From positions 1 to 28,760 of the IMG/VR virus record IMGVR_UViG_3300032214_000788: a stretch of 28,760 nt of DNA; one strand, given 5' to 3'. Shown piece after piece: positions 1-25,013 of this stretch. The DNA is from a virus. Position 1 is the stretch's first letter, and each line of letters opens with the position of its first letter. Under the pieces are notes generated by a model. It saw only the letters and a program-made list of their open reading frames with translations. It was not told the DNA's origin and searched no databases. The position numbers and the translations under genes are program-made.

Positions 1-473
1 ATTTGGTTAAATATTTGGGTCCTTGCTCTTTTTCCTAACGTATTTTTTTTTGTTATATAAGAATACCCAAATCCATAATCCCCTGATTGCCCAACAACTC
101 TCCATATTTTTTGACCTGAGTTAAGATCCGTTGGTGTTAAATGAGCGTGAAACTTATAATTCCCACCAGCACTAGTCCAACCAAACTCACCCAAATCTTT
201 CACGTCTTTCCCCATCCACCTAAATGACGGTAAATTTAACTTTTGGACAATTAGATCATCTATATATAAATTGGGTTCTGGAGATATTCTTATCGGTAGG
301 ATTCCCGTTTCTTCGTAGAATTTCACCATATCACCATCATAAAAAATCTTAACTAAGTTACTAAAACCACCAATATATCCCACTGCACCTGCAAGACCTT
401 CATCATCAATCAATTGTTTAATTTGATCCTTGATTATACTTTCATTTAATATTTTTCTTATTAGTTCTCTCAT
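1..473 (-). CDS. Leader-tagged hypothetical protein (3' part cut by window edge)
   Basis: An open frame runs from the ATG at 473-471 off the left edge, giving the first 157 residues. It begins MRELIRKILNES, the same leader as the next five genes, with an L-N-E triplet at residues 9-11. The body is unrecognised: a Gly-rich stretch (GLAGAVGYIGG) near residues 27-37, then mixed beta/aromatic sequence including RWMGKDVKDLGEFGW. The start is fixed by the leader and by an ATGA overlap with the stop of the upstream gene (470-472), which indicates translational coupling. Function is unknown. By the leader I infer a virion-internal or assembly-processed protein. Confidence is high that it is a gene and low on any role. 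Confidence 0.8.
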   Translation of the reverse strand, partial: MRELIRKILNESIIKDQIKQLIDDEGLAGAVGYIGGFSNLVKIFYDGDMVKFYEETGILPIRISPEPNLYIDDLIVQKLNLPSFRWMGKDVKDLGEFGWTSAGGNYKFHAHLTPTDLNSGQKIWRVVGQSGDYGFGYSYITKKNTLGKRARTQIFNQ

Positions 474-1111
474 TGTCCTTTTAATCTTCTGTATTCGTCA
501 CCATTAAGTTGTCCTAAATAAGTATCTTCAATCCATCCTGGTAATCTCTCTTCCCACCACAATATATCCTTCATTTTATATTTTCCCGATTTAAGAATGT
601 GTTCTATCATTTCTTCTTCAGTTACATCATCAGGTTTTGTTATCGGTGGAAAACAAATATCACCATCACTACTAGACACATTAAGTTCAGAAATGTAGAT
701 ATCATTTCTACCCATCTTTTTTTGAATCTCACCTAAATAAGTATCATCAAACCATTCTTCAAGAAGGTATCTTAAATAACTTACTCTCATAGGAATATCT
801 GTGGTTAAATCATCAAATACATTTTTTGGAACACTCATAATCCCCTTATCCAGACTTCTTTCTTCAGTTTTTCTTTTGTCGTCAAAAACACTATAATCAG
901 TATCAAAATATAAAGTAACACCCAATATTTCTTTTCCGTTTTTACAAAAATCAAAAGTATGTGTCGATTCATAATGTTTTTTATGATGTATTTGTACACT
1001 ATCAAAATAGTCATTTAACCATCTGTAGACAAGTTGTTCTATCTTTGGTGTAGGTTTATCGTATTTTCTACTAACCTCTTCTTTCAATATGTTTCTAATT
1101 AAATTTCTCAT
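470..1111 (-). CDS. Leader-tagged hypothetical protein, 213 aa
   Basis: Starts MRNLIRNILKEEV, with the L-K-E triplet at residues 9-11. A GTG one codon upstream (1114) is also possible, but the ATG at 1111-1109 forms a TGATG overlap with the upstream stop and puts the leader in register with its neighbours, so I prefer it. The body is acidic and rich in aromatic residues, and contains two similar segments, FDDTYLGEIQ near residue 122 and IEDTYLGQLN near residue 194, which hints at a small internal repeat. No signal peptide, membrane segment or known domain was recognised. It is part of a run of six leader genes with overlapping starts and stops, probably one transcript. Confidence 0.8.
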   Translation of the reverse strand: MRNLIRNILKEEVSRKYDKPTPKIEQLVYRWLNDYFDSVQIHHKKHYESTHTFDFCKNGKEILGVTLYFDTDYSVFDDKRKTEERSLDKGIMSVPKNVFDDLTTDIPMRVSYLRYLLEEWFDDTYLGEIQKKMGRNDIYISELNVSSSDGDICFPPITKPDDVTEEEMIEHILKSGKYKMKDILWWEERLPGWIEDTYLGQLNGDEYRRLKGQ

Positions 1112-1542
1112 CACGCATCATATTCATCTTGTCTTACCCAAAAATCTAATGTTAAAATAAATGATTCGTCACCACCAGCTTGCCATTTCATACCAATTGG
1201 GACGCAACTCATAAACCAATCATTGTCGGGACCTCTTTTAATCAAACCACCGTTTTCTGTGAATGTGTATTTTTTTTGAATTTTATAAACTTCATCTTCT
1301 AATCTATCAATTTGTTTAGCGAGTGAACCAAAATCATGGTCTTCGTAATACGATTTAACCGTAAGATTTGCTTGGATTTCAGTGTATTTAGGGTCAAATT
1401 CAATTTCACTTATCTCCACAGAATCAATCTCAGAAGAAGCATTACTTTCAAAGATATATTGAAGTTTTCGCATAGAGTTTTTAAATCTTTCTTCAAGATT
1501 GTTTTCTTCTTCTTTTAATATGTGTCTAATTAATTCTTTCAT
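1111..1542 (-). CDS. Leader-tagged hypothetical protein, 143 aa
   Basis: Begins MKELIRHILKEEE, with the L-K-E triplet at residues 9-11. The ATG at 1542-1540 overlaps the upstream stop as ATGA. After the leader comes a likely helical segment, then a beta-rich stretch with a Glu-rich predicted helix near residues 73-90 (LAKQIDRLEDEVYKIQ). The C-terminal part (GMKWQAGGDESFILTLDFWVRQDE) looks like beta strands. No known family was recognised. Its place in a tightly coupled array of otherwise unrelated proteins sharing one leader suggests a common destination and not a shared enzymatic function. Confidence 0.8.
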   Translation of the reverse strand: MKELIRHILKEEENNLEERFKNSMRKLQYIFESNASSEIDSVEISEIEFDPKYTEIQANLTVKSYYEDHDFGSLAKQIDRLEDEVYKIQKKYTFTENGGLIKRGPDNDWFMSCVPIGMKWQAGGDESFILTLDFWVRQDEYDA

Positions 1543-1865
1543 TGCATTACTTCGTATAAAAACTTTTTAATTGTTCTAACAATTTTTTGTCTGTATGGGT
1601 CATTCTCGTTTGAGAAGTTATCAATCGGTTCGATGACATTATTTTCTTGTAACATGTTCAAAATCAATCTTATTTGTCTTTTTTTACTATCCCACATTGA
1701 TATGCCATAATATTCATCGTCAATCTTGAAGTATATTTCTTTATACTTAATTTGGTCGTCAATATTCACTTCATTAATTTCATATCTTCTTCTTAGAAAA
1801 TTAAAAACTTTTTGGTCAATTTGTTCAACCTCTTCTCTCAATATATCTTTAATTAATTGTTTCAT
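1539..1865 (-). CDS. Leader-tagged hypothetical protein, 108 aa
   Basis: Begins MKQLIKDILREEV; the triplet at residues 9-11 is L-R-E. The start codon overlaps the upstream stop by one base (TAATG) and its own stop overlaps the next start (ATGA). The body has a charged helix (KVFNFLRRRYEI), two short predicted strands, and a C-terminal basic helix (YRQKIVRTIKKFLYEVMQ). It resembles no family I know. It is about 96 residues after possible leader removal, the size of the T4 internal proteins, but that is only an analogy. Confidence 0.78.
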   Translation of the reverse strand: MKQLIKDILREEVEQIDQKVFNFLRRRYEINEVNIDDQIKYKEIYFKIDDEYYGISMWDSKKRQIRLILNMLQENNVIEPIDNFSNENDPYRQKIVRTIKKFLYEVMQ

Positions 1866-2317
1866 TATTCAAATATAAACCCTTCTATATTTAATTGTTT
1901 ATAATCTAAAATTCCATGTCTTATAGAAAAGTCTGTTTCCATTTTAACATCAGAAGGTAAATATTGATACGCAGTTAATAAGGCTTCTCTAATTTTACTA
2001 TACTCATTATATGGTTCATCAAAAATATCGTCATATAACATACCCGAGAATGGGTAAGGGACTTTTCTGTTTGATATGTGACCTTTAAAAAGTGGGTTTG
2101 GTTTCAAATTATAATATTCTAAGGCCTCATTAAAGTTAACTATCAAATTAATATATATATTGGTCCCATAAGTTTCAATTGGATCATCAAGTACCCATCC
2201 TTTTATAAATGGGAACTCTTGTTTTAAAATTTTAACAGAAATATTAATACCTTTAATTATATCATCCTTGTTTTCAAGAACTTCCTCTTTTAATATATGT
2301 CTTATCAAATCTCTCAT
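1865..2317 (-). CDS. Leader-tagged hypothetical protein, 150 aa
   Basis: Begins MRDLIRHILKEEV, with the L-K-E triplet at residues 9-11. The ATG at 2317-2315 overlaps the stop of the upstream gene (ATGA). The body mixes predicted beta strands (TNIYINLIVNF) with a segment of Pro/Tyr-rich loops (KVPYPFSGMLYDDIFDEPYN) and a helix (SKIREALLTAYQYL). No motif diagnostic of an enzyme was seen. The only feature shared with its neighbours is the leader. Confidence 0.78.
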   Translation of the reverse strand: MRDLIRHILKEEVLENKDDIIKGINISVKILKQEFPFIKGWVLDDPIETYGTNIYINLIVNFNEALEYYNLKPNPLFKGHISNRKVPYPFSGMLYDDIFDEPYNEYSKIREALLTAYQYLPSDVKMETDFSIRHGILDYKQLNIEGFIFE

Positions 2318-2655
2318 TTACCTATATAAGTTACGTACTCAGCATTTGCGCCAAATTCATTATTAAACCAATCAATAACATATACCATGTCATCCTCATT
2401 GAATATACCTGTAAGTGATTCGGCTATCTCGTCATCAAGTTCTAACTCCTTTTTACCATCTATGTATCTGGCATATAATTTTTCAGTTTCTTTATCTCTA
2501 AAAACCTCCATTGTGTAATCACCATAGTCATAGTATTCTATATCCACTACATCTTCTTTAAAGTTAGGATAGAACGCATTCATGTATTGACCAATAAGTT
2601 TGACTACCTTATTTGTGTGATTTTCTTTCAATATGACCTTAATTAAGTCTCTCAT
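2314..2655 (-). CDS. Leader-tagged hypothetical protein, 113 aa
   Basis: Begins MRDLIKVILKENHTNK, with L-K-E at residues 9-11. It is the first gene of the overlapping leader array. The ATG at 2655-2653 is preceded on the coding strand by TTATATTTATAAACA, one of several AT-rich ATATTTAT elements before tagged genes. The body is acidic (pairs such as DDEIAE and EDDMVYVIDW) with a likely alpha/beta fold. No recognised family. The 51 bases upstream, to 2706, hold no gene and may carry the promoter. Confidence 0.78.
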   Translation of the reverse strand: MRDLIKVILKENHTNKVVKLIGQYMNAFYPNFKEDVVDIEYYDYGDYTMEVFRDKETEKLYARYIDGKKELELDDEIAESLTGIFNEDDMVYVIDWFNNEFGANAEYVTYIGK

Positions 2656-2837: not shown

Positions 2838-4691
2838 TTAGCTAAATGTTAAAGTTATTGTTTGAGATGGGGCATTAACTGTGGATTGATTTGTTCCTCC
2901 CCAGTTAGCATTGTTAATTTGTGGTCTTAATGCGTATGTACTTGACGCATTACAACTTCCAACGTTAGATAACTCAATTGCAACACCACCAATTTTAGGA
3001 GTTCCACATCCCGTTCCAACTCTCCATACCACACTGTTTATTGTCACGCCGGTTGCAGTTCCTGTTCTTAACCCATTGGCCAATACTTGAACTAAAGTTG
3101 AGTTACTCACTGTTATTGAATTACCATTTGTACTTGACCAAACGAATTGCGTGTATGAACCTGTTAATCCCGTTCTAAATACATTCCAAGCAGTTTCAAT
3201 ATCCCTTGAAGGTGCGGTACCACCTGTAAATGCCGCTGAGAAAGTATTTCCTGAAACCGCAGTAGGACTTGGTGTTGGTGTTGGACTAATTGTTGGTGTA
3301 GGTGTTGCTGTTGGTGTAGGTGTTGCTGTTGGTGTAGGTGTTGCAGTTGGAGTTGGTGTTGCTGTTGGTGGAATAGGTGTTGCTGTTGGAGTTGCTGTTG
3401 GTGTAGGACTAATTGTTGGTGTAGGTGTTGGTGGAATAGGTGTTGCTGTTGGAGTTGGACTTATAGTCGGTGTTGGTGTAGGCGTCGCAGTTGGTGGGAT
3501 AGGGGTTGATGTTGGTGTTGGTGTTGGTGTTGCGGTTGGTTCTAAAAATCTACTATACGTATTATTATAACTTTGTAATATATCTGAGTCTGTTAATACA
3601 CTATTATAAATTTTAACTATCGCCAAATCACCGTCAATAAAATTAGAAGCCGTGAGGGTATCATCCCATCTTCTCATTAGTCTTATTTCACCTCCACTTT
3701 GAGGTGTTCCGACGTAACTCACTGTTCCTCCTGACGCCTGTCCGTTTATATATTGTCTTATTGTTGATCCATCATATGTTCCAACAACTTGATACCATGT
3801 ATTTAATTGTGGTACAAATCCTGTTGTGGTTCTCCAAGCACCATTATAATACCCAACAGCAATATTCTTATTAGTTGGTGCATTATTAGTACCGATACTA
3901 AAATTAAGTTTGGTACTTAGGTCAAATTGATTTGTTACTATCGCACTTACTTTTGAAGTTAATGCTGTTGTTATACGGAACCACGCTTCCACGGACCATT
4001 GTGAAAGATTACCTATATTTGGTATAGTCCCGTATTCTAAAGACACATCATCAAACTGCAAAATACCACTATAACTTGGTGAAAATGTTGGTGTATTTAA
4101 TAATGTTGCATTATTGTTATTTGATGTTAAATCAAACCATGTAGTCCCCGTTCTAGGGTATGACGTTAGATTTCCAGAATCAAGATTAACTAATAACCCC
4201 ACAGTAGGAGTTGGAGTTGGGGTAGGCGTTACAGTCGGAGTTGCCGTTGGTGTTGCCGTTGGTGGTATAGGGGTTGCAGTTGGGGTAGTTGTCGGTGTCG
4301 GTGTTATTGTAGATGTTGGTGTTGGTGTCGGAACAAAGTCATATGATGTCCAATACCCGTTGTTATTCAAATATGTTCTACAATCATTTCCGTTGGTAAA
4401 TGTTTGATTAAATAATGTGTTTGTTAATTCAATAAACGAATTATCTGTTTTATTAACCGATCTCCAAAATCCAATATAAGCAGGAACCCTTAAAGGGTTT
4501 GGTTGGTCACCTGAAGGGTTTGTATGTGCAATCACATAACCCAAATTCTCATCAGGTCCGTTCCACCATTTTAACCCACCATAATCTTGATCATATCTAA
4601 CATCACCATTACCCACAGCAATGTTACCGACTTGTATGGTAAAAGGTAATGTGGTTCCTGTATTATATGCAAACGGTCTTGATGTAGACAT
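2838..4691 (-). CDS. Tail-fibre/adhesin-like protein with LamG-like domain and Pro-Thr linkers
   Basis: 617 residues. Residues 1-120 form a Trp/Asn/Gly-rich domain. Residues 121-164 are a linker almost entirely of P, T, A, S, I and V. Residues 165-385 resemble a concanavalin-like/laminin-G fold (LamG_3 type), with [15 protein letters not shown] near 177, [11 protein letters not shown] near 211 and WSVEAWFRI at 232-240. Residues 386-478 are a second, longer Pro-Thr linker with PIPPTATPT repeats, and 480-617 a C-terminal beta-rich domain. There is no signal peptide. LamG domains bind glycans, and phages use such modular proteins as fibres or capsid decorations, so a host-surface or mucus-binding role is likely. 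It overlaps by one base (TAATG) with the stop of the oxidoreductase gene. Assignment to a specific virion part is not possible. Confidence 0.75.
3258..3542. repeat. Degenerate short tandem repeat encoding second Pro-Thr linker
   Basis: On the plus strand the tract is a run of GTTGGTGTAGG, GTTGCTGTTGG and GGTGGAATAGG units, about 6-18 bases each. It codes on the minus strand for PTP, TAT and PIPP repeats of the fibre-like protein (residues 384-478). Repeats of this type are prone to slippage and recombination, so linker length may vary between relatives. Confidence 0.85.
4200..4331. repeat. Degenerate short tandem repeat encoding first Pro-Thr linker
   Basis: The same repeat type as the longer tract at 3258-3542, encoding residues 121-164 of the fibre-like protein. 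The two tracts share unit sequences (such as GTTGGTGGTATAGG and GTTGCCGTTGG variants), so recombination between them could delete the LamG-like domain that lies between. Confidence 0.8.
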
Positions 4692-5473
4692 TATTTTTTA
4701 GGTTCTTCAATTTTCATATCTTTAAGAAACTTATCGTGTGAGTCCTTATATGATTTTTGACTTTCATCTTTTGGATTTTTAGTGTATTGCCAATTCCAAT
4801 ATAACTTGTCGTTAGGTTTAAACCCATAATACATGTGGACTTCTTTTTGTGTGTCAGTTACATTCTCACCATTCCAATTTTGACCAACACATATGAAACC
4901 TGTTTCAATATTTTTAACAATGTTACTCTCACCTAATGTTGTGTGTCTGTTTTCAATCCAATTTAACCTTTCTATTAAGTTTTGGTAATACATATTCGCT
5001 TGTCCCCATCTTATTGAAGAAAAGAATATTACAGCATCAGATTCAAACAGTTCTTTACTAATTTTCCATAACTCATCTGATGGTTCGTTAATGTTAACCC
5101 AACATCTATGATGTCCTGATGGGTTCTTTTTCTTATCTTTAAGAGCCGCTTTTAATACTCCGCAAGAGTTTCCATCGGCCCTTGATACGTTACCCTCACA
5201 AGGCAATATTTTAAGTTCTGTGATGTCTATAAAAATTGCTTTATCACCCAACTCTTCTTGGATGTGTAAAGCCAATAACCTAGATTTAGGAATGTCAGGT
5301 TTTTTAGGGTCGAATTGGTATCTATTTGAACAAGATAGTAAAAGAACTTTATCTTTCTTCTTTAATATATCGATGGTTTGTTTTAATTTTTTATAACCGT
5401 CACTTTGCACCATCTCTTCAGACAACATCAATTGTCTAAGTCTACCCAATTCTTCCCGTAAAATAGATTCCAT
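4691..5473 (-). CDS. Flavodoxin-fold NAD(P)H-dependent oxidoreductase-like protein with N-terminal leader
   Basis: 260 residues. A GTG at 5488 is possible, but the ATG at 5473-5471 is favoured because it yields [20 protein letters not shown], a loose version of the leader seen downstream, with L-R-E and L-S-E triplets. The body fits a flavodoxin-like fold of the NADPH-dependent FMN reductase/WrbA type: strand [10 protein letters not shown] (42-51) with a possible phosphate-binding loop, a later Cys-containing loop ([14 protein letters not shown], 91-104), strand [14 protein letters not shown] (145-158) with SIRWGQAN, and a helix [11 protein letters not shown]. Family members reduce flavins or quinones with NAD(P)H. 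A redox enzyme with an assembly leader is unusual, and the substrate is unknown. It heads the structural operon and diverges from the gene at 5532. Confidence 0.65.
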
Positions 5474-5496
5474 AATAATAAATATCACCTATTTTG

Positions 5497-7437: not shown

Positions 7438-8016
7438 TTATCTTTTATAATATTCAATTATTTCTTTTATTGGTTTGATTAATTGTTTAGGGTAATCGTT
7501 ATTTAAAAAATCAATAAATTCCTGTATTGTTCTATAACCCGATGGTGTGTTTTCTATTTTTTTACCTGTATTATCGTAATAGTCATTATAGTCACCTGTT
7601 CTCTTATCCTCAAAATAACTACCATCAACAGGAGTATTACATTCACCATTCCAATAAGGTGTTGCAAATCCTGTTAACTTATAATCGTCATCATTAAATT
7701 CAAATTCTACAGTCCCACTAAAACCACCCGATCTTAAATTTATAAACATTTGGCCATCGTTAAAATTATAATTTTTATTGATAAAGTCAGTTCTAAACAT
7801 AAGAATCAGGACTAACTCCTCAGCATACTTACAATCAATATTCATTTCTTTATCTTTAAGATAAAAAATAATTTCTCTCATATTAAGTCCAGTGTATTCT
7901 TTAATATCATCCATTGACATTCCGTTCACCAACATATCGTATAAGATATCTGATTTCTTATCTTCTTTGGATTCAAGAAGATTCTTATATTGTGATTCTG
8001 TTATTATTATTTTCAT
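7438..8016 (-). CDS. Leader-tagged hypothetical protein, 192 aa (MKIIITESQ type)
   Basis: Begins MKIIITESQYKNLLESK, the second leader type, with L-L-E at residues 13-15 and I-T-E at 5-7. Residues 25-55 (ILYDMLVNGMSMDDIKEYTG then LNMREIIFYL) look like a helix-turn-helix. The rest is beta-rich with many Asp, Asn and Tyr residues, including TPYWNGECNTPVDGSYFEDK. It is the last gene of a four-gene operon sharing this leader, and its start overlaps the upstream stop (ATGA). Function unknown; a DNA-contact role is possible but weakly supported. Confidence 0.75.
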   Translation of the reverse strand: MKIIITESQYKNLLESKEDKKSDILYDMLVNGMSMDDIKEYTGLNMREIIFYLKDKEMNIDCKYAEELVLILMFRTDFINKNYNFNDGQMFINLRSGGFSGTVEFEFNDDDYKLTGFATPYWNGECNTPVDGSYFEDKRTGDYNDYYDNTGKKIENTPSGYRTIQEFIDFLNNDYPKQLIKPIKEIIEYYKR

Positions 8017-9116
8017 ATCTCCACGTAATACACATTAACCATTATTCCCGTTCTTGGGTATATTAATGAATTTAAACAATCCTGTATAACACCCGAAACC
8101 TCTCCTTCAATCTCGAACCCAATATCATCATCATTCAAAGCATCTTCTAAAGATAAGTGTCTACCATCCATAATGGTAACTGAACCACCATCAGACACTT
8201 GACACTCTATTTTATAGACATCGTCTTTAATATAAACATTAGTGATTCTCCAATCAAAGTCATACCCACCAACAAACTTTTCAGGAAAATCTTTTGTTGA
8301 GAAGTTATTAATTGATAGTTTATCGATTATTTCCATACTTTTTTCTTCACCACCAATGTAGTTATTAAAAAACTCGGCATAGTCATTAATATCCGTCCAT
8401 TTATCTATACCAAAATACCTAAGTATGTCTTCATCAAAAGTCGGGTAACCATTCTCTTTAGTTTGTTTATTCCACATACTCATAAGAATATCGGATATAC
8501 GAGTGGGGTTTTCTGAACTCTCGTTTATACCATAAGAACCCCCATCAATTTCTTTTAATTCAACATCCACCTCAATCGGTATACCATATTTTTCTAATAG
8601 ATTGTAAAAGAACTCGTACACCGCAGAACGAATCATTCCCATTAGTTCACCACTTTCATAATTAAGTAAAGACTCATGATAAGCAGCATCTATTGTGTCA
8701 TGCACTTCATACTCTTCTTCATTCTCTTCATCCCAACCAACAAAATCCACAGTCCCACGAGGATCCACATCAACCATAATTTCAATAAAACTATTTACTG
8801 GTTCAAGGTGAACTACCTTTATTGTGGTATCCAAATTAAACAAATCTTGGTTTAAATTATATTCTTTAGTATCAATCTCATCTCTAACTTTATTATATAA
8901 CTTATCAAACCCTCCGTTATAATTGTACCATAAAGGTCTAATGGTGTCGTAATCTTCTCTTGTTTCTTTATTTAAACCTAAAACTTTATATAACATATCA
9001 TCCAAACTCGGTTCTTCCCCATGTTTCTTTTGGTTATTCCAAAAACCATATAAAAACTCCCGAAGTTTATCTTCAGTAAGTTTTTGATATTGTGATTCTG
9101 TTAATATTATTTTCAT
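8013..9116 (-). CDS. Leader-tagged protein with internal duplication, 367 aa
   Basis: Begins MKIILTESQYQKLTEDK (L-T-E at 13-15). The body appears to be two diverged copies of one domain of about 165-175 residues: copy 1 at about 17-190 and copy 2 at about 206-367. Matching landmarks are FWNNQKKHGEEPSLDDML..VLG with MWNKQTKENGYPTFDEDIL..FG, the Gly-Thr/Gly-Ser strand pairs, and the ends IPIEVDVELKEI with IMVNVYYVEI. Both copies are strongly acidic. No known family was recognised. The start overlaps the stop of the lysozyme gene (TAATG). Confidence 0.75.
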   Translation of the reverse strand: MKIILTESQYQKLTEDKLREFLYGFWNNQKKHGEEPSLDDMLYKVLGLNKETREDYDTIRPLWYNYNGGFDKLYNKVRDEIDTKEYNLNQDLFNLDTTIKVVHLEPVNSFIEIMVDVDPRGTVDFVGWDEENEEEYEVHDTIDAAYHESLLNYESGELMGMIRSAVYEFFYNLLEKYGIPIEVDVELKEIDGGSYGINESSENPTRISDILMSMWNKQTKENGYPTFDEDILRYFGIDKWTDINDYAEFFNNYIGGEEKSMEIIDKLSINNFSTKDFPEKFVGGYDFDWRITNVYIKDDVYKIECQVSDGGSVTIMDGRHLSLEDALNDDDIGFEIEGEVSGVIQDCLNSLIYPRTGIMVNVYYVEI

Positions 9117-10072
9117 TATGCGTATTTAGCGTATTTACTTAGCGAGACGTATTTAGCACTAACCCATGCATAATCATCTTCAGCATCAACCGTTGGGTCT
9201 AATTTAACGTAGTACCACTTGTCGTTTTGTGTTACGTCTTTAATGTCTTTAATTACACCAACAGGGTTAGGCCATTTAACCACACCTATTTTATTATCTA
9301 TTAATCCGTTATTAATCTCAGGAGTATATCTTAAATTTACGTAGTCAGTGTCGGATCTTTTTGTCGGGTAAACTACTTTATTAATGTGATACAATCTTTC
9401 CCATGTCTTATAGTCAGCATCATCAGGAATATTACCTGAAAATTCCGTGTACGGTCCTTTTTGTGTGTCGGATTTTGGTTTAGTTTTTGATTTTAATTCA
9501 TTTGCATATTTTTTAAATGCCTTTTGATTAGTCATCATTCTATCTGCAACCCCACCTTTATATTTTGGATTACTTGCCTGAGAAAAGTCTATATCCCATC
9601 CTTGTAAGTATTTTGTTGCTGCATCTTCCCAATCCCCATCATTAATTGCTTTAACCCATTTATAATCTTTTTTCGCCTCACCTCTATAAACTGAATTTAC
9701 AAGTGCTTTTTTAACATACAAAGGATAAGACCCATACTTTGGGAATAAGTCTTTGGCTTTATTTTCTTCTTTTTGTATGTCCGATGTTAGTAGTTGCTCT
9801 GCCTTTGCTTTTGATATTTTGTTACCAACTTTGGCTTCAGGTCCTGTGTGTCCCCAACCAATAGTTAAAGTCCCTCCTCTTTTTTTGTTTGTGGAGTTTA
9901 CAAATGTTTTTGGGTTTTTCGGATCCTTATCATCAAACACATAATGGTTACCTGATGGGTCAACCACTTCATTCTCATATGATTTAATCGTTTCTCTGAA
10001 ATCCGTATCATCAACCAATGATGATGCTTCCATTAATAGATTTAATTGTGATTCTGTAATTATTATTTTCAT
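9116..10072 (-). CDS. GH24 lysozyme with N-terminal leader and C-terminal SH3-like domain
   Basis: 318 residues. Residues 1-15, MKIIITESQLNLLME, are the leader. Residues 23-195 fit a T4-type lysozyme (glycoside hydrolase 24), which cleaves the MurNAc-GlcNAc bond of peptidoglycan. The likely catalytic Glu is in SYENEVV (Glu 33), and the TIGWGHT motif (70-76) matches TIGIGH of T4 lysozyme. There is a long insertion (about residues 38-67, rich in Asp, Lys and Asn) between the Glu and the Thr motif. Residues about 228-312 (DYVNLRYTPE.., KWYYVKLDP.., YAWVSAKYVSL) resemble a bacterial SH3 wall-binding domain. The leader and lack of a signal peptide suggest a virion-associated entry lysozyme rather than the lysis endolysin, which is inference. 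Confidence 0.85.
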   Translation of the reverse strand: MKIIITESQLNLLMEASSLVDDTDFRETIKSYENEVVDPSGNHYVFDDKDPKNPKTFVNSTNKKRGGTLTIGWGHTGPEAKVGNKISKAKAEQLLTSDIQKEENKAKDLFPKYGSYPLYVKKALVNSVYRGEAKKDYKWVKAINDGDWEDAATKYLQGWDIDFSQASNPKYKGGVADRMMTNQKAFKKYANELKSKTKPKSDTQKGPYTEFSGNIPDDADYKTWERLYHINKVVYPTKRSDTDYVNLRYTPEINNGLIDNKIGVVKWPNPVGVIKDIKDVTQNDKWYYVKLDPTVDAEDDYAWVSAKYVSLSKYAKYA

Positions 10073-11193
10073 TTACATATAATTTTTTCAGTATCTTGCT
10101 TTTCAACTTTCATTTCCACTTTTTCAAGTTCAGGATTACCCTTAGTGTATTTGTAAGCAGTTATGGTATTATATTGCGGATGGATTCTAAACCTTATAGT
10201 AAGTCTTGGTTCGTCACATCCTCTTTGACCTTTGTTTGACCAGTATAACTCCACGTATTCTATTGGTACAACAATATTTCCTTGGAATATTACAGCGGCC
10301 ATGTTGTCTCTAACTTTATTTAAGTAATCAACACCTTTAACCTGTATCCAATCAAATACATTATTTATAACCTCACGATATAATTCGATATACTGAGGTT
10401 TAACTTCTATGGCTCCCCTGTTTTTAAAAATTGCAAAAAATTCAGATAAATAACTATCGATTAATGGGTCCATTTTTTTTGCCTCAAATATCGAATCTTT
10501 CGGGAAAATTAATTTACCGTCGTGGTATAAATCAGTTATAGATTTAACATCTGACTTTATAAATCCATTTCCGTTATACATGGATCTTCCAATACACCCT
10601 TTCATTTGAAATAACAATCCCGATTTGGTTATTACTTTATCTGTAACTTTTTTTAATAAGTCTAAGAATGTTGATGAGTCTTGTGTTTCCCCACATTTGT
10701 AATCTAAAGAAAGTGATGTGGTATGTTTTTTAAATTCACTACCTTCCAAATCTCTTTCAAATTTTTGATGCTCTTTGTGTCTTACTTGCGTTAAAAGTGA
10801 ATCATAATCAACAGGTAAATCATTACTCTTTCTAACCTTTACTAATTTTCTTTTTGTTTGGTCGTTATTAAATTCAGGGTCCTGAATAAACTCAGCAACC
10901 GAGTTTAAAAAATATATAGACCTTGATTCATCCTCCAATGCCTTATTAATTAAAGAAGGGAATGACCCATTATTTTTTCTAATAAAAAAAGCATCCAATA
11001 TTTCTATCGCCTCATCTAAACGACTTACCAAATATTGGTTTTTAATTCTACTTCTTAAATTTTCTAAACGACAAAAGGGAGAATTTTCAACTTTTCTTTT
11101 TTTAGATTGTTGGCATAGTGAATGAATTCTTGGTGTTTTTTCATAACCCTCATTCAAAATTCTATATTGCTCCTCTGTTATTATAATTTTCAT
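10069..11193 (-). CDS. Leader-tagged hypothetical protein, 374 aa
   Basis: Begins MKIIITEEQYRILNEG (L-N-E at residues 13-15). It heads the four-gene operon. After the leader comes Cys 27 and Cys 41 in an arrangement (C-x13-C-R-L) like that of the tagged nuclease at 12703-13557. The middle is helical and basic (QTKRKLVKVRKSNDLP), and the C-terminal third contains EVKPQYIELYREVINNVFDW and RGCDEPRLTIRFRI, with beta strands. I do not recognise a family. The coding-strand sequence just upstream, ACTATTTATTAAAT, belongs to the AT-rich motif group seen before tagged genes, and the terminator at 11223-11240 separates it from the gene before. Confidence 0.75.
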   Translation of the reverse strand: MKIIITEEQYRILNEGYEKTPRIHSLCQQSKKRKVENSPFCRLENLRSRIKNQYLVSRLDEAIEILDAFFIRKNNGSFPSLINKALEDESRSIYFLNSVAEFIQDPEFNNDQTKRKLVKVRKSNDLPVDYDSLLTQVRHKEHQKFERDLEGSEFKKHTTSLSLDYKCGETQDSSTFLDLLKKVTDKVITKSGLLFQMKGCIGRSMYNGNGFIKSDVKSITDLYHDGKLIFPKDSIFEAKKMDPLIDSYLSEFFAIFKNRGAIEVKPQYIELYREVINNVFDWIQVKGVDYLNKVRDNMAAVIFQGNIVVPIEYVELYWSNKGQRGCDEPRLTIRFRIHPQYNTITAYKYTKGNPELEKVEMKVEKQDTEKIICK

Positions 11194-11599: not shown

Positions 11600-12703
11600 T
11601 TATATAAAATCATTAAAATAATCATTGATGTTTTTTGTTGTTCTACCCCAATCAGGATATTCAGGTATTCTAAAATCGATACAGTCCTCTATACCCTCAT
11701 TAAATAAAGCGACCATCATAGATGTGTAATCACCGTAATATTCTAAAACTGAATCACTGTAAGCAGAACCTTTGTTACTGTTAATGAACGATAAAACATA
11801 GCTCATAAAATTTCTAATCTTAACGTATGAAACGTATCTTGTTTTATCTCCCACTTTTTTTGGTTCCTCTAAGATTGGACCATCAAAAAATTGGTCTAAT
11901 CCACCCATAACCAATTCATATATCTCATCTTCGTAAGCAGTATTCTCTGAATTCCAATAAAGACTTTTTAACTCACTACCAATATCATAAAGTTCATTAC
12001 TAAACAACTCGTTAGTTGCATCAGAATCCTTTAACAAAGTATTCAAAGATTCGGTGGTAATTCTAAAATAACCTTCAGTTCCTTGTTCTTCAGATAATGA
12101 TTCAAAATAATCAGAATGGTAATCTTCTAACGATAACTCTTTGTTTACCACTTCTTTGTAAATCACGTCTTTGAGTTTAGTGATATTCATATCATCTAAT
12201 TCTTCAACAACATTATATGGTTTTGTATCGTTATCAAAGTACCATTCATTACCCAAACCATCATCACTCAATACTCTTTTAGCCACTTCTCTAGCCCCAT
12301 AATCGCCTCGTCTACCACTACAGAAAAATTCAGAAAGTTCTTCTCTATCTCTAAGTCTTAAATAATACCCACCATCTCTAATTTCGACATCTGTTAATAG
12401 ATTGTCTATAATATATTTAAATGTATTATCTCGGTCTTTGTTTATTTGAGCCAATAATAATATGTTTTTTAAGTCATCAGGAGCGTATTCATATTCCATG
12501 TTTTCAAAAATACCATTATCCTCCATGAATTTGATAAGTTCGTCATCTATATCCCTTGGACTAATCATACCTAAATCCAAATCATTTAATCGGTCATATT
12601 TTTTGATGTATTTAAGAAAAGTCATTATATCGTTAAAATATGGTTCTAACTCATCGTAAAACTGACGATCATTAAAAATTTCTATTACTTCATCTACACT
12701 CAT
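11600..12703 (-). CDS. Acidic hypothetical protein, 367 aa
   Basis: Begins MSVDEVIEIFNDRQFYDEL with no leader. Very acidic and rich in Tyr and Asn. Visible segments are an N-terminal helical region, a beta part around VEIRDGGYYLRLRDREEL, long helices to about residue 300, and a C-terminal end EYPDWGRTTKNINDYFNDFI. No catalytic motif or known domain was recognised. Its ATG overlaps the stop of the nuclease gene by one base (TAATG), so it is translated with the nuclease. An adaptor or inhibitor partner of the nuclease is a possible reading, with no direct evidence. Confidence 0.72.
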   Translation of the reverse strand: MSVDEVIEIFNDRQFYDELEPYFNDIMTFLKYIKKYDRLNDLDLGMISPRDIDDELIKFMEDNGIFENMEYEYAPDDLKNILLLAQINKDRDNTFKYIIDNLLTDVEIRDGGYYLRLRDREELSEFFCSGRRGDYGAREVAKRVLSDDGLGNEWYFDNDTKPYNVVEELDDMNITKLKDVIYKEVVNKELSLEDYHSDYFESLSEEQGTEGYFRITTESLNTLLKDSDATNELFSNELYDIGSELKSLYWNSENTAYEDEIYELVMGGLDQFFDGPILEEPKKVGDKTRYVSYVKIRNFMSYVLSFINSNKGSAYSDSVLEYYGDYTSMMVALFNEGIEDCIDFRIPEYPDWGRTTKNINDYFNDFI

Positions 12704-13557
12704 TATAATTCTATAACTTCTTTTGTTTTATTATCATAAATAGTAAACGGCTCAGCAATTACAACCCAATCAATATATTTATATTCTTTATTTCTATCCC
12801 AAGCACCTTCATTTAATTTAACTTGTATTGTTTTTTTCCCAAACTCTGGATGTGACATAATTAAATCAGTGCCAAATACCATATCAATTAAATCGCCTTC
12901 ACCTCCTTGGTAAAGTAAGTTAAACCCTTTATTCTCTAATTCATTTTTAACTTTGTTCTCAGCCATTTCACCTTTGTTAGACCTAAATGTGGTGTTTTTA
13001 ACATAATCAAAAAGTGTAGATGGGTCTTCAAAGTATTTTTTTAAAAGTGCGGGTAAAAATCGTTTAATGCTTAATAACCCTTCTTTTGTATTTACATTTA
13101 TGTCATCTATAATTTTTTGTGCTGTAACAGATTTGTATAATAAATCGGTTAATAATTCGGCTAAGTCCGCAGTGTTAGTGTTTAATTTGTTAACAGGTAT
13201 CCATTTACCATCAATCAAAACTATCGCACCTCCCTCTACTCTATCTTTTATGAAATAATAATAATGACCTTTAGATATTTTACCCATATCTAATAAAATG
13301 TTTGCACCTTTTTTGAATTTTTCTTTTTGTTCTTTAGTAAATGGAGATTTAATCGGTTCTAAAGCATTGTCAATCACCGATTGTAAACCAAGTCCATTAT
13401 CATTATATAACCACGATTGTAAATAAGAAATTTTTCTACATAATTGGTATTTTTCTTTGTTACCACTAAACTGGTCACAAACACTATATTCTTCAACATC
13501 TTCAGTTAAAAGAGACTTAATGTAGTCTTTTAAATGTTCTTTAATTATTTCTTTCAT
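12703..13557 (-). CDS. PD-(D/E)XK-type nuclease-like protein with N-terminal leader
   Basis: 284 residues. Starts MKEIIKEHLKDYIKSLLTED, a stretched version of the LIRxILKE leader, with L-T-E at residues 17-19. Cys 27 and Cys 40 follow. The C-terminal part, about residues 193-270, fits the restriction-endonuclease-like core: helix GEMAENKVKNELENKGF (196-212, with Glu 200), strand with Asp residues (GGEGDLIDMV, 218-227; Asp 225 and Asp 231 are candidates), and strand TIQVK (243-247) for the (D/E)xK-like Q-x-K. Such folds cut DNA or RNA using metal ions. The Gln in place of D/E is a known variation. The target is unknown. The coding strand upstream reads AAATATTTATTATTA directly before the ATG. 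Confidence 0.6.
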   Translation of the reverse strand: MKEIIKEHLKDYIKSLLTEDVEEYSVCDQFSGNKEKYQLCRKISYLQSWLYNDNGLGLQSVIDNALEPIKSPFTKEQKEKFKKGANILLDMGKISKGHYYYFIKDRVEGGAIVLIDGKWIPVNKLNTNTADLAELLTDLLYKSVTAQKIIDDINVNTKEGLLSIKRFLPALLKKYFEDPSTLFDYVKNTTFRSNKGEMAENKVKNELENKGFNLLYQGGEGDLIDMVFGTDLIMSHPEFGKKTIQVKLNEGAWDRNKEYKYIDWVVIAEPFTIYDNKTKEVIEL

Positions 13558-13587
13558 TAATAATAAATATTTAAATACAAAAAGTTT

Positions 13588-17413: not shown

Positions 17414-19975
17414 TTAAAACTTATATCTAACTGATAGTGATATCGTTTGACCGAAAGTAATCTCCTGCCACCTATTATCTTCTGTATCATATTTATGATT
17501 ACCATTAAGGTCTTGGAAGTATATAAGTTTTTGTGCTAATATATCTTTTACGTTTAATTTTAACTCAAGTTTTTTAAATGTTTTTGATAACTGAAAGTCC
17601 AATACATTTCTTCCGTTTTCCCAAACACTTGGTTCCTGTTGATTTCCAACAATATAAATTCTAGGCCCAATAACATTATATGAAAGTGTTAGATTAAAAT
17701 CTTCTTTTTTGTTCGTGTAAAATAATCCTGAATTAATAATATATGGTGATTGTCCTTGTAGTGGTCTGTTACCGCCAGCACCAATTACATTATCCATATT
17801 TACCACTGACTTAATAATCGATAAGTTACTATATATTGTGAGTTGGTCCCATAACTTATGGTTTTCAACTTTAGATAAAAACCCTAATTTAAATCTGAAT
17901 TCTAACTCACCACCAAAACTTTGTGATCCATCAATGTTTGAGAAGTATAACTCAGGTGCTCCTGATGTTCCAGTCCTATTTATAGTTTCGATAGGATTAT
18001 CAAAGTTTTTGTAAAACCCCGACAAACTTATAATCTGACCACTACCAGGATAAACCTCATATCTAATATCACAATTAGTTATCTTAGTTCTTTTTAAGTA
18101 TGGGTTACCTGATGTGATATTATCCAATATGAAGTTATAGAAGTTAAATGGTGCCAATTCTCTAAACTCAGGTCTAGACACCGTTTGACTAATACTTCCT
18201 CTTAACTTCATTTTTTTATTGAAGTTGTAAATTACATTAACTGAAGGTAATAAATCAATTACCGTGGTATCAATATTTCTATCTATGTTACTTCCAAATT
18301 CGATGTAGTTAAAGTTTTGATTGTAAGATTCTAATCTAATTCCTCCAGTAATTCTCCATTTGTTCAATTTGTAATCAACCATAGTGTAGAAAGAATTTAA
18401 GAATGAATTAGCATCATAACTATCATCTACTTTGGTTGCCTCATCTAATTTAAATCCACCCTGACCATTACTTAAAAGACCCATATTCTCAGTGGAGAAT
18501 ATTTGGTCCATAGGTAATAAAAGTAAATCACTATTGAAGGCGCTACCATTTGGTTTATACTGCGAAAATCCAAAGTTTCTTGATTGGAAGTCTTTCATTC
18601 TAAATTGATTCCATCCTCCAATTTTAATTGAATTAACATCTTTAAAAGGGATTGTTAAATCATACTTAGCACTTATAATTTTTTCATCCGATTCAGACCA
18701 AAACATATTACCAGCAGCTGTTGGTATTGTCCCGTTCTGTTGTACAACTGCAACATATTGTTCTGTTGGATCGTCCTCATTTAAAGAGTATTTTCTATAA
18801 ACTACTCTCCTTAGGTTTGGAATGTCTCTTTTAACATTACTATAACCAACACTCCAATTAAATTTATTTTCTTTTATTGTGTGAAGCCCAAGTAATTGAT
18901 TAGTTAAAAAGTTATTTTGAGTATACCAAAAATTCGTAGACTTTTCCCATTGTCTTGGATCACTATCCAACTCTCTAACACCATTTCTAACGTTAACCTT
19001 ATCTTCAGAATTTACAGAATAAATGTTCTTAAACTTTATGGTGTTGTTTTCGTTAATCTTATAAACAAAATTTAACATACCACTATTCAAAACACTCTGA
19101 GTAAAGACAGAATCATTTAGTTCCATTTTCTTAACCACACCAGTCGCTTGTTCCTCAAACTCCCTTCTAACAATATTATTATAGTTGAAGTTGTTTTGGT
19201 AGTTATACGTTAAAATGAAACTTAACGTTTGTTTCTTTTTTAATTTAATGTTTCTACTCAACGTATATTGAATAGATGGGTTAGGTAATGCAAGTCTATC
19301 TTTAGTCGACCAAGTAAAGTTCATTAATTTTGCAACCTCAGACCTTTCTTGTTTTGATAAGTTTTGAAAATCAATAGTTCCGTCAATATTAGGTAACCCT
19401 CTAGAATCAACATTATATGTTTTAAAATTCCTAAATGTGGCAATTGTATTATGCGACCCACCAATCTGTATTGTGTGGACATTTTCATTTTTAGGTTCGG
19501 AAGTGTTAATATCAATCACACCACCAGCAAACTCACCAGGTAAATCAGGGCTAGCGGTCTTCATCACCATTAGATTGTCAATCATATTTGATGGGAATAT
19601 ATCAAACGAAAAAGACCTCTTATCAGATTCCGAACTTGGTAAAGGTAGTCCGTTCAATAATGCAAAGTTATATCTATCATTAAGACCTCTCACAACCACG
19701 AACTTATTGTCAACAACACTTATACCACTTACACGTTTAAAAACATCAGAGACCTTAGAGTCTGGTGTTCTCTTAAAGGTCTCTGCGTTAATACCGTCCA
19801 CAGATGTAATACTATTTCTTTGTAGTTTTACAAGTTCTGTTGTTGATTCTTTATTAATTTTAAAGGTAACCGTAACTCCCTCAACATTTCTAACTGAGTC
19901 TTTTTTAAATGTCTCAGATGGTTGAGCTAATAATTGTATTGGTAGTACCAATAATAACGTCAATAAAAATTTCAT
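17414..19975 (-). CDS. TonB-dependent outer-membrane receptor
   Basis: 853 residues. A signal peptide (MKFLLTLLLVLPIQLLAQ, cleavage near residue 18) precedes EGVTVTFK, a possible TonB box, and a plug domain with SDVFKRVSGISV, VVRGLNDRYNFALLNG (about 93-108) and DLPGEFAGGVIDINT (about 143-157). A long beta-barrel follows and ends in the aromatic LSVRYKF, the usual barrel-assembly signal. The N-terminal carboxypeptidase-like domain common in Bacteroidota members is absent. These receptors import large nutrients or metal complexes with energy from TonB/ExbBD. TonB itself must come from the host. It follows the T9SS protein gene by five bases, so the two form one unit. Such a receptor is unusual in a phage context. 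Family assignment is firm; the substrate is unknown. Confidence 0.92.
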   Translation of the reverse strand: MKFLLTLLLVLPIQLLAQPSETFKKDSVRNVEGVTVTFKINKESTTELVKLQRNSITSVDGINAETFKRTPDSKVSDVFKRVSGISVVDNKFVVVRGLNDRYNFALLNGLPLPSSESDKRSFSFDIFPSNMIDNLMVMKTASPDLPGEFAGGVIDINTSEPKNENVHTIQIGGSHNTIATFRNFKTYNVDSRGLPNIDGTIDFQNLSKQERSEVAKLMNFTWSTKDRLALPNPSIQYTLSRNIKLKKKQTLSFILTYNYQNNFNYNNIVRREFEEQATGVVKKMELNDSVFTQSVLNSGMLNFVYKINENNTIKFKNIYSVNSEDKVNVRNGVRELDSDPRQWEKSTNFWYTQNNFLTNQLLGLHTIKENKFNWSVGYSNVKRDIPNLRRVVYRKYSLNEDDPTEQYVAVVQQNGTIPTAAGNMFWSESDEKIISAKYDLTIPFKDVNSIKIGGWNQFRMKDFQSRNFGFSQYKPNGSAFNSDLLLLPMDQIFSTENMGLLSNGQGGFKLDEATKVDDSYDANSFLNSFYTMVDYKLNKWRITGGIRLESYNQNFNYIEFGSNIDRNIDTTVIDLLPSVNVIYNFNKKMKLRGSISQTVSRPEFRELAPFNFYNFILDNITSGNPYLKRTKITNCDIRYEVYPGSGQIISLSGFYKNFDNPIETINRTGTSGAPELYFSNIDGSQSFGGELEFRFKLGFLSKVENHKLWDQLTIYSNLSIIKSVVNMDNVIGAGGNRPLQGQSPYIINSGLFYTNKKEDFNLTLSYNVIGPRIYIVGNQQEPSVWENGRNVLDFQLSKTFKKLELKLNVKDILAQKLIYFQDLNGNHKYDTEDNRWQEITFGQTISLSVRYKF

Positions 19976-19980
19976 TCCTA

Positions 19981-21543
19981 TTATTTTTTAACTATTACTT
20001 TTTCAGTATGACCATCAGCATTAATGATATAAATACCATTTTCCAAATCTGATAAGTCTGTATTGTTTTGTTTTACGACTTTACCTAATGAATTGTAGAT
20101 TACAAAATTTAAAGATTTTTTATCAGAATCAATACTAATTAAACCTTCTGTTGGGTTAGGGAATACTTTAAACGACGTTTTGATTGTTTCAGTAATACCA
20201 TTAGTTAAATCACCAAATTTAGAATTTGTAAAGTCAGCACCTGTTGCAACAACTGATGTACTATCTAATCTACAATCAGGTGTTACTCCGTTAGATACAA
20301 AAATATTAACCCAATTGATTTGATTAATTGTTGTTAACGAATCGTTACCATTATTTGTAAAATATGTATTTAAAAACCCTGGTGTTGTAACCAAGCAATT
20401 TGTTGGTATTTCACAAAGTACGTTATTATTGAAAGATAGTGTATCACCTAATACATTATCCTCAACTGATGTACCTTCTAATGATAAACCTTTTTCCCAT
20501 CCAACAACAAGAGTGTTGAATACTGAAACTGCAGAGTTTCTTCTTATTCTAAATGCTTTCTCAAATTTCTCACCTGTAGGTAAGATAACACTACCGTCAC
20601 CTTTAGCCCCAACAAGTGTGAAGTTAGAAAAAATAGGTGCAGTTTGTGGTAAAGCCACACTACCTTGTGCGTCATTGTCAGATTCGAAACAATTTGAGTC
20701 GCCCGCGGCGTCTGACAAATTTTCATTTCGAATTGATAACCCAAACTGAACATTACCTCTATAACCAAAGTCAGTATCAAAATCATCATCGGTTGTTGAA
20801 TATGATATTAAATGTTTACAGTTAACCGTTCCTCCAAACCACTCGAAAGAATCATCCCCAGAAAAACTAACTTGGATGTAATCCACTTGTGTTCCTGATC
20901 CAACCGAACCAAAAGTGATACCATTAATTTCTTTATTAGGTGATAAAGGAATTCCACCAAATTCGATTCTCACATATTTTAATGAACCTGAATTATCCGT
21001 ATCATTACTTCCACCAAATTCAGTATCAGGTGTTGGTACAATACCTTCAATATTTGCAACACCACCAGGTTGGTTATTAACTCCGTTACCTAAAATAACG
21101 ACTCCACCCCAATCACCTTCAGAACGATTTCCAACTGAATTATTTGAAGTAAATACGATTGGTAATTGTTGTGTCCCTTCAGCAATCAATTTACATCCTC
21201 TCGTAACGATTAAAGTTCCCTGTGTTGAATAGTCACCTCTAATTATCGTTCCTGGTTGGATAGTAAGTGTTGCTCCGTTTTTTACATATATCTTATTCTG
21301 CAATAAGACTACACCAGACAAAGTTGTGTTTGTTGTGATATCAGAACTTATTGTTGTTTGTGTTGATGGGTAATTTGTATTCTCGGGATCAAAGTTAGAC
21401 CACCCATAAGTCCAATCTGTTTGTGGTGTGTTATCAGTTACAGGAAAAGCCCCTTTATAGTCAGTAACTGTCCAAAACTGACTTTGTGCGCTTGTTAAGA
21501 AAACAAACATTAACATTACGATACTTGCGTAAATCTTTTTCAT
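19981..21543 (-). CDS. Secreted repeat/beta-helix-like protein with T9SS type A sorting domain
   Basis: 520 residues. A signal peptide (MKKIYASIVMLMFVFLTSAQ) leads to a Gly/Asn/Thr-rich body whose turns (NGATLTIQPGTIIRGD, GTLIVTRGCKLIAEGTQ, GDWGGVVILGNG) are typical of a right-handed beta-helix surface protein. Residues about 455-520 (FKVFPNPTEGLISID, then VIYNSLGKVVKQ, then LENGIYIINADG and EKVIVKK) match the C-terminal sorting domain recognised by the type IX secretion system, found only in Bacteroidota. The protein should be exported, cross the outer membrane through the host T9SS and be released or anchored. Adjacent receptor and T9SS protein pairs occur in flavobacterial chromosomes. It is co-transcribed with the TonB receptor. 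Confidence 0.88.
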   Translation of the reverse strand: MKKIYASIVMLMFVFLTSAQSQFWTVTDYKGAFPVTDNTPQTDWTYGWSNFDPENTNYPSTQTTISSDITTNTTLSGVVLLQNKIYVKNGATLTIQPGTIIRGDYSTQGTLIVTRGCKLIAEGTQQLPIVFTSNNSVGNRSEGDWGGVVILGNGVNNQPGGVANIEGIVPTPDTEFGGSNDTDNSGSLKYVRIEFGGIPLSPNKEINGITFGSVGSGTQVDYIQVSFSGDDSFEWFGGTVNCKHLISYSTTDDDFDTDFGYRGNVQFGLSIRNENLSDAAGDSNCFESDNDAQGSVALPQTAPIFSNFTLVGAKGDGSVILPTGEKFEKAFRIRRNSAVSVFNTLVVGWEKGLSLEGTSVEDNVLGDTLSFNNNVLCEIPTNCLVTTPGFLNTYFTNNGNDSLTTINQINWVNIFVSNGVTPDCRLDSTSVVATGADFTNSKFGDLTNGITETIKTSFKVFPNPTEGLISIDSDKKSLNFVIYNSLGKVVKQNNTDLSDLENGIYIINADGHTEKVIVKK

Positions 21544-23159: not shown

Positions 23160-25013
23160 TTATAAAACCTCTTCAAACTCAACATCGGCAGATTTGTCAT
23201 CACCTTCGTTAGTTGTTTGATTATATAAACCTTCACTAATCTTTTGGAATTTAGAGTTTAGTTCATTAATATCGGTTTTGATTTTATCTATATCTTTTTT
23301 AGAATGAGATTCTTTTAATGTTTCTATCGCAGATTGTAAATCTGTTTTTTGTTCTTCAGTCAATTTATCCTCCAAATCTTTTATTGACTTTTCACTTTGG
23401 AAAATCGTTGAGTCAGCGTTGTTAAGGGTATCAACTTCCTCTCTTAACTTTTTATCGTTCTCAGCATTCATTTCGGCTTCTTGTTTCATTTTCTCAATCT
23501 CTTCTTTTGAAAGGCCTGAAGATGATTCAATACGTATTGTTTGTTGTTTATTAGTCCCTTTATCTAATGCGGAAACATTAATAATACCATTAGCATCGAT
23601 GTCAAATGTCACTTCAATTTGTGGTACACCTCTCATTGCTGGTGGTAATCCATCTAAATGGAATCTACCTATTGTTTTATTGTCGGTTGCCATAGCTCTT
23701 TCACCTTGTAATACATGAATTTCAACTGATGGTTGGTTATCAACTGCGGTTGAGAAGACCTGTGATTTTTTGGTTGGGATAGTTGTGTTAGATTCTATTA
23801 ATTTAGTAAACACTCCACCCATTGTTTCAATACCTAAAGATAGTGGTGTGACATCTAATAATAGAACATCTTTTACATCACCCGCTAATACACCTCCTTG
23901 TATTGCCGCACCTAAAGCAACTACCTCATCAGGGTTAACCCCTTTTGACGGTTCTTTACCAAAGAATTCTTTAACCGCCTCTTGAATTGCTGGGATTCTT
24001 GTTGTACCACCAACTAAAATAATCTCATCAATATCACTCACTTTAAGTTTAGCGTTCTTCAATGCAGATTTACAAGGGTTGATAGTTCTTTTAATTAAAG
24101 AATCTACTAATTGTTCAAACTTAGATCGAGTCAATGTTCTAACCAAGTGTTTTGGAACACCGTCAATTGGCATAATATAAGGTAAATTAACTTCAGTGGA
24201 GTTTGTTGATGATAACTCAACTTTAGCCTTTTCCGCAGCTTCTCTAAGACGTTGTAACGCCATAGGGTCTTGTGTTAAATCAACACCATTCTCATCTTTA
24301 AATTCACTCACCATCCACTCAATGATTGCTTGGTCAAAGTCATCACCACCTAAATGTGTGTCACCATCTGTAGATAGTACTTCAAATACTCCGTCACCTA
24401 ATTCAAGAATAGAAACGTCATGAGTTCCACCACCACAGTCAAATACAACCACTTTCATGTCCTTTGACATCTTATCTAAACCATAAGCCAATGCCGCTGC
24501 GGTAGGTTCGTTAATAATACGTTTAACATTTAATCCAGCAATCTCACCAGCTTCTTTAGTTGCTTGTCTTTGAGCATCATTAAAATACGCAGGTACCGTA
24601 ATAACCGCCTCAGTTACACTTTCACCTAAATAATCTTCGGCAGTTTGTTTCATTTTTTGTAAAACGATTGCCGATATTTCTTGTGGTGAATATTGTCTAC
24701 CATCAATATCAACTCTCGGTGAATTCCCATCACCCTTCACTACTTTATAAGGTACTTTTTTAACTTCCCCTTTTGATTCATCGAAACTAGTTCCCATAAA
24801 TCTTTTAATTGAATGTACAGTTTTGTCAGGATTAGTAACCGATTGTCTTTTTGCCGGATCACCAATCTTTCTCTCACCGTCTTTCATGAACCCAATAATT
24901 GATGGTGTTGTTCTCTTACCCTCATTATTTGTAATCACAATAGGTTCACTCCCTTCCATTACTGCAACACAAGAATTTGTTGTTCCTAAATCAATTCCAA
25001 TAATTTTTCCCAT
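23160..25013 (-). CDS. dnaK: Chaperone DnaK (Hsp70)
   Basis: 617 residues, close to the roughly 635 typical of bacterial DnaK. The nucleotide-binding domain has [18 protein letters not shown] at the start, [45 protein letters not shown] and [11 protein letters not shown]. The substrate-binding domain has [44 protein letters not shown] and a helical lid ending EFEEVL, the EEV-type tail that binds partners. It refolds proteins with DnaJ and GrpE, which must come from the host because neither is seen here. It looks complete and intact, with no frameshift. A phage-encoded DnaK is rare and may assist virion protein folding or capsid assembly. The upstream region carries a 15-base palindrome (25091-25105). 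Confidence 0.97.

Follow-up and report, generated by a model that had tools for sequence, protein, structure and literature searches.

Our analysis concerns a gene for a predicted leader-tagged nuclease in the window, by which we mean the whole 28,760-base IMG/VR viral fragment, derived from uncultured giant phages, probably with Bacteroidota hosts. Gene calls were crude longest-ORF calls, and the features are collected in Table 1. The open reading frame given in a preliminary description of this DNA is real and lies on the minus strand, and the nuclease motifs named there are all found (A199-E200..V203..E206-L207, G221-D222..D225 and I244-Q-V-K247), as is the N-terminal leader with L-T-E (MKEIIKEHLKDYIKSLLTE-D, with L17-T18-E19). 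The same description noted a translational coupling to the gene of an acidic 367-residue protein (11600-12703); this gene lies downstream of that of the nuclease, the coupling is a one-base overlap of stop and start (TAATG), and the protein has a pI of 4.2.

Table 1. Features of the window discussed in the text, in order of position.
Feature	Positions	Strand	Remarks
Five class-A leader-tagged genes in a run (M+.LI+.ILKEE/N)	470..2655	minus	homologous run in G001 at ~246255-248089
Class D-like leader-tagged protein	4691..5473	minus	motif L 12 nt before ATG at 5473
Two more class-B leader-tagged genes	7438-8016, 8013-9116	minus	
Phage lysozyme (PF00959), class-B leader MKIIITESQLNLLME	9116..10072	minus	
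Class-B leader-tagged gene (MKIIITEEQYRILNE)	10069..11193	minus	motif L 13 nt upstream
Leader-tagged gene, predicted PD-(D/E)XK-type nuclease	12703..13557	minus	284 aa; ATG at 13557, stop 12703-12705
C-terminal PD-(D/E)XK-type domain (predicted), residues 184-284	12706..13008	minus	model, fold search, Pfam
Q245-V-K247, predicted QxK catalytic motif	12817..12825	minus	Q245 and K247 58/58
D222-x-I-D225, predicted metal ligands	12883..12894	minus	D225 58/58, D222 56/58
E200, helix glutamate	12958..12960	minus	58/58 invariant
Helical N-terminal domain, residues 27-183	13009..13479	minus	family-specific; AlphaFold2 model and alignment
NKLNTN motif, residues 123-128	13174..13191	minus	N123-T127 58/58, N128 57/58
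N-terminal leader, residues 1-19 (MKEIIKEHLKDYIKSLLTE)	13501..13557	minus	predicted prohead-protease propeptide ending L-T-E
ATATTTAT, motif L, putative late promoter element	13563..13570	minus	13 nt before nuclease ATG
DUF6878 protein, 255 aa	13588..14355	minus	Pfam E 1.1e-12; immediately upstream of nuclease in closer-clade contigs
DUF6915 protein, 117 aa	14369..14722	minus	Pfam E 5.6e-37; 67-88% identical where relatives keep it upstream of nuclease

By sequence comparison, the protein belongs to an undescribed viral family of 58 distinct members. The core alone retrieved 28 viral loci and a DNA pattern 60 stretches; an alignment search confirmed 109 relatives, of which 80 were kept, and removal of duplicates left 58 distinct complete members, among which near relatives and near-copy contigs make the family counts non-independent. 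Queries of the isolated phage records with whole proteins, from the window and from three distant members, gave no match, a core-only query of these records gave a single one, at E=3, which is a chance match, and one scan of GTDB genome contigs gave 139 pattern stretches with no relatives by tblastn, the absences from both sources being limited by the sensitivity of tblastn. The full protein found nothing convincing by sequence in Pfam, PHROGs or the PDB, and a search of the literature on virion-packaged nucleases yielded no relevant phage family. Three longer relatives were seen, each with additional sequence in the N-terminal part. Two of them, L213 and L215 (~410 aa), start with a class-B leader (MRNFIISEGQLNHLLE) and have N where the window protein has D222; the third, L055:7972-9204 (~411 aa), has a leader of class A, and its additional region amounts to ~110 residues.

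The nuclease motifs are not a chance resemblance, in that the residues invariant over the 58 distinct homologues include those so marked in Table 1, together with D231; the two members that depart from D222 have N. An AlphaFold2 model built with 25 relatives has a mean pLDDT of 90.9, with values of ~50 for residues 1-20 and >80 beyond. The C-terminal 101 residues modelled alone give a helix, a strand, a short helix and then strands, and the predicted core has the order helix-strand-strand-strand; E200 falls in the helix, and QVK lies on a strand. In a fold search with this domain, for which a restriction-endonuclease-like fold had been proposed, the matches of top probability were of this type (SPARDA nuclease 0.66; AvaII, tRNA splicing endonuclease and VRR_NUC 0.47 each), but none reached E<0.001; with the whole model AvaII ranked first, again with no PDB match at E<0.001. 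Single members gave weak Pfam matches to Mrr_cat (five), PDDEXK_5 (two, best 0.0019), DUF4365 (two) and several restriction enzymes, the Mrr_cat (PF04471) matches being confined to 5 of 25 members with a best E of 0.025, short of the family cut-off.

The conserved acidic residues and (D/E/Q)xK motif that define the PD-(D/E)XK superfamily are both present, in the QxK form found in Mrr-type members. Conservation, predicted topology and the individually weak fold and Pfam matches, taken together, lead us to accept membership of this superfamily, in a D...QxK subtype like Mrr, as likely rather than proven, and conservation and structure prediction thus strengthen the earlier claim of a PD-(D/E)XK-type core. 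The family shares with Mrr, PDDEXK_5 and DUF4365 the helix glutamate, the D...QxK arrangement, the predicted core topology and the weak Pfam matches; unlike them, it has a family-specific helical domain with NKLNTN and a leader, and its similarity to them is sub-threshold. AvaII, NucS/EndoMS, VRR_NUC and the SPARDA nuclease are among the best fold matches, none at E<0.001 and with identities of at most ~22% over the aligned parts. The replacement of D222 by N in two members would fit a catalytically inactive DNA-binding protein with a PD-(D/E)XK fold, but none of the other candidate catalytic residues varies, even between deeply diverged members, and we consider an inactive protein very unlikely.

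The leader of the window protein has the length and ending of a T4-type capsid-targeting sequence (CTS), described as 10-20 residues ending in (L/I)xE (PMC9026906), an ending that by itself is a common tripeptide. Leaders were assigned to classes A (M+.LI+.ILKEE), B (MKIIITESQ), C (KRIIRLTESDL..), D (EEI.RIK.LM..) and T4-like by regular expression and by eye, the tag counts being dependent on the expressions used and the D label of L043 doubtful; A, B, D and T4-like leaders all occur in the nuclease family. With a class-A profile built excluding this family, the window leader came within the highest-scoring 1.2% of 1792 background genes, and with a class-D profile from eight unrelated genes most class-D nuclease leaders were outscored by few or none of 1824 background genes. 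A profile of T4-like leaders from G004 and G009 failed to recognise the T4-like nuclease leaders, which therefore resemble T4 tags by eye only. In a tree built from protein bodies only, the window protein, with its A-like leader, is nested among members with D leaders (support 100/98), to which it is 76-78% identical in the body, with 12-13 matches over the first 26 residues. Leader-tagged genes are abundant in the window and in the relatives G001-G003, where they encode unrelated products such as lysozyme. As far as its distribution over genes tells, the leader is modular: several classes are found on the nuclease, and these are shared with unrelated proteins. Two members from G027 (L186 and L187) have a very short leader, MKLIKEQ or MKYKIKEQ, and several other leaders of this genome also end in KEQ, which suggests a lineage-specific cleavage sequence.

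An S77 protease gene (PF03420) was found above cut-off in G001, G002, G003, G029 and G030, all large relatives. These five and G007 encode a gp23-type capsid protein (PF07068), its gene lying a few kilobases away from that of the protease. The capsid protein has an N-terminus of the form ...LINE-A, with a candidate I-N-E|A site. In T4, gp21 cleaves after L/I-X-E, and the propeptides of the internal proteins have 10-19 residues (PMC9026906). Inside the head-gene cluster of G003, the stretch from protease to scaffold includes leader-tagged genes (portal, scaffold and tail names were read from position and sequence, protease and capsid from Pfam). No prohead protease was found in the window fragment (28.8 kb), and its presence in the window phage is for this reason supposed from the relatives. 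The leaders are predicted to be helical and are diverse, as might be expected if they served another targeting or assembly role (membrane, phage-nucleus import or docking) and the nuclease acted late in the cell, for example by degrading host or superinfecting DNA. We consider this improbable in view of leader ends near (L/I)xE or K-E-E, the tagged genes between protease and scaffold in G003, the S77 protease and gp23-type capsid of phages that carry such leaders, and a length that fits that of the T4 internal-protein propeptides (PMC9026906).

The tagged genes are also distinguished by what lies upstream of them. In the window, five of the eight sense-strand copies of motif L ([ACG]TATTTAT) are followed at 12-13 nt by the start of an ORF of 60 aa or more, that of the nuclease among them, and none of the six copies on the other strand is so placed. 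In G001, ATATTTAT precedes 46 of 148 intergenic starts and its reverse complement six, a control that we quote for G001-G003 only; reversing the sequence gave no usable control, since the reversed motif overlaps with TATATTTATA, an extended form of the motif. Motif L sits ahead of the portal, the protease and other head-cluster genes, and may be a late promoter or, alternatively, a translation signal. The other, Bacteroidota-type motif (E), TAnnTTTG, is the -7 element of this phylum, in its refined form TAHHTTTG (PMC6847099), and is found ahead of, for example, primase-like and ATPase-like genes. In six contigs, 45 tagged genes have L only and one has E only, versus 241 and 94 untagged genes (p=1.8e-5). 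Of the tagged nucleases, 26 carry motif L, at 12-15 nt upstream in nearly every case, and three have a second, lineage-specific motif, TAATATATA, at 14-15 nt. A good many others lack a motif immediately ahead of the gene itself, often because the nuclease starts a few bases after the DUF6878 gene. The interpretation of the N-terminus as a removable leader is thus strengthened by its modularity, by the T4-type protease and capsid genes of relatives and by the link between tag and promoter. In G004 and G009 (L221-L234), many genes start with MKYLKRFNES-like sequences and often have TAATATATA just upstream, forming a second dialect of tag and promoter that belongs to another phage lineage.

A recognisable leader is absent from at least four of the 58 members, and G024 and G025 hold leaderless nuclease members yet tag other genes. 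Three of these (L198, L201 and L210, of MVE type) lack motif L and carry TAHHTTTG 26 nt upstream, and a fourth (L034) has neither. The MVE-type trio is one clade (100/99), so the association between leaderlessness and a host promoter may be a single event. This clade suggests that it is the early presence of the enzyme that matters, and thus a role early in infection rather than in packaging. A head-associated nuclease acting on the phage's own DNA, in end processing, branch resolution or completion of packaging, would be placed in the head by the tag in the same way, and T4-like jumbo phages are described as having virion nucleases of restriction-endonuclease fold with such roles (PMC7824862). 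T4 gp4, a TnsA-like head-completion nuclease, is alike by description in its fold and its association with the virion (PMC7824862), but differs in its structural and packaging role, being needed for packaging. Such a role is unlikely for the present family, in which the three relatives inspected have the nuclease gene outside their head-gene cluster and the host-type promoter of the leaderless members would be ill-suited to a packaging enzyme. It is possible, though short of probable, that one family uses two interchangeable routes to the onset of infection, with tagged, late-made virion copies and leaderless copies under host promoters, that gain or loss of the leader tracks a switch of promoter, and that leaders are swapped to suit the packaging system of each lineage.

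The 367-residue protein had also been proposed as an inhibitor or partner of the nuclease, which our comparison does not support, as their adjacency is not conserved. We rejected this candidate on finding its G001 homologue at ~28.4 kb on the plus strand, ~235 kb from the nuclease (263.6-264.5 kb, minus strand), and no homologue was found next to the nuclease at any other locus compared. On the other side of the gene, the order DUF6915-DUF6878-nuclease is conserved in closer-clade contigs, and the DUF6878 protein is acidic (pI 4.25) and evolves much faster than that of DUF6915 (~26-45% versus 67-88% identity among relatives), as would suit a three-gene unit with DUF6878 as a possible inhibitor. 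We give this very little credence, because in G002 the DUF6915 and DUF6878 homologues lie together, apart from the nuclease, and distant nucleases have neither in the stretches examined.

Our preferred reading, which we consider moderately probable from the gene sequences, is of a late-made, head-loaded nuclease that is trimmed, ejected early in infection and cuts non-self DNA; the target itself we propose tentatively. We infer how the protein is packaged, where it is cleaved, that it is ejected and acts as a nuclease, and what it attacks, as follows. The phage would make the nuclease late in infection, and the leader of ~19 residues would act as a capsid-targeting propeptide like those of the T4 internal proteins, drawing the nuclease into the prohead scaffold core, where an S77 (gp21-type) protease would cut after LTE-19. 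The trimmed enzyme would remain with the packaged DNA and be ejected at the next infection, most likely to cut host chromosome, plasmid or competing phage DNA. The system resembles the T4 internal proteins and Alt, whose CTS is cleaved by gp21, in its short leader with an L/I-X-E-like end and its unrelated cargo (PMC9026906), and also in the S77 protease and gp23-type capsid of the relatives' genomes and the putative late-type upstream motif. Unlike T4, it would package a nuclease of an undescribed family, combines several classes of leader in one genome, tags dozens of genes and has leaderless versions with a host-type promoter.

That a family of at least 58 distinct sequences has several classes of leader, and one clade with none, points to a large cargo system based on tags in uncultured giant phages, with dozens of tagged genes in each genome and a nuclease among the cargo. 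Phages can reportedly load enzymes into the head by a short cleavable tag, as in T4, and to our knowledge few natural cargoes of such tags have been characterised. The leaders and the two upstream motifs provide a sequence rule for predicting ejected proteins in phages that have not been grown; by this rule, tagged genes would be expressed late and their products found in virions, and untagged nuclease copies would be early and absent from virions.

Among the other genes of the window, the lysozyme with a class-B leader is possibly a head-packaged lysozyme. The gene listed at 4691-5488 (minus strand) has a GTG start at 5488 that is probably wrong, the position of motif L and the leader indicating the ATG at 5473 as the true start. 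At 17414-21543 (minus strand), a TonB-dependent receptor gene (853 aa) lies directly downstream of that of a 520-aa protein with a type IX secretion C-terminal sorting domain, which is 64-69% identical in contigs of several relatives; this outer-membrane cargo is unusual for a phage and hints at Bacteroidota hosts. A DnaK-like chaperone gene (617 aa, 23160-25013, minus strand) is 81% identical to its copy in G002.
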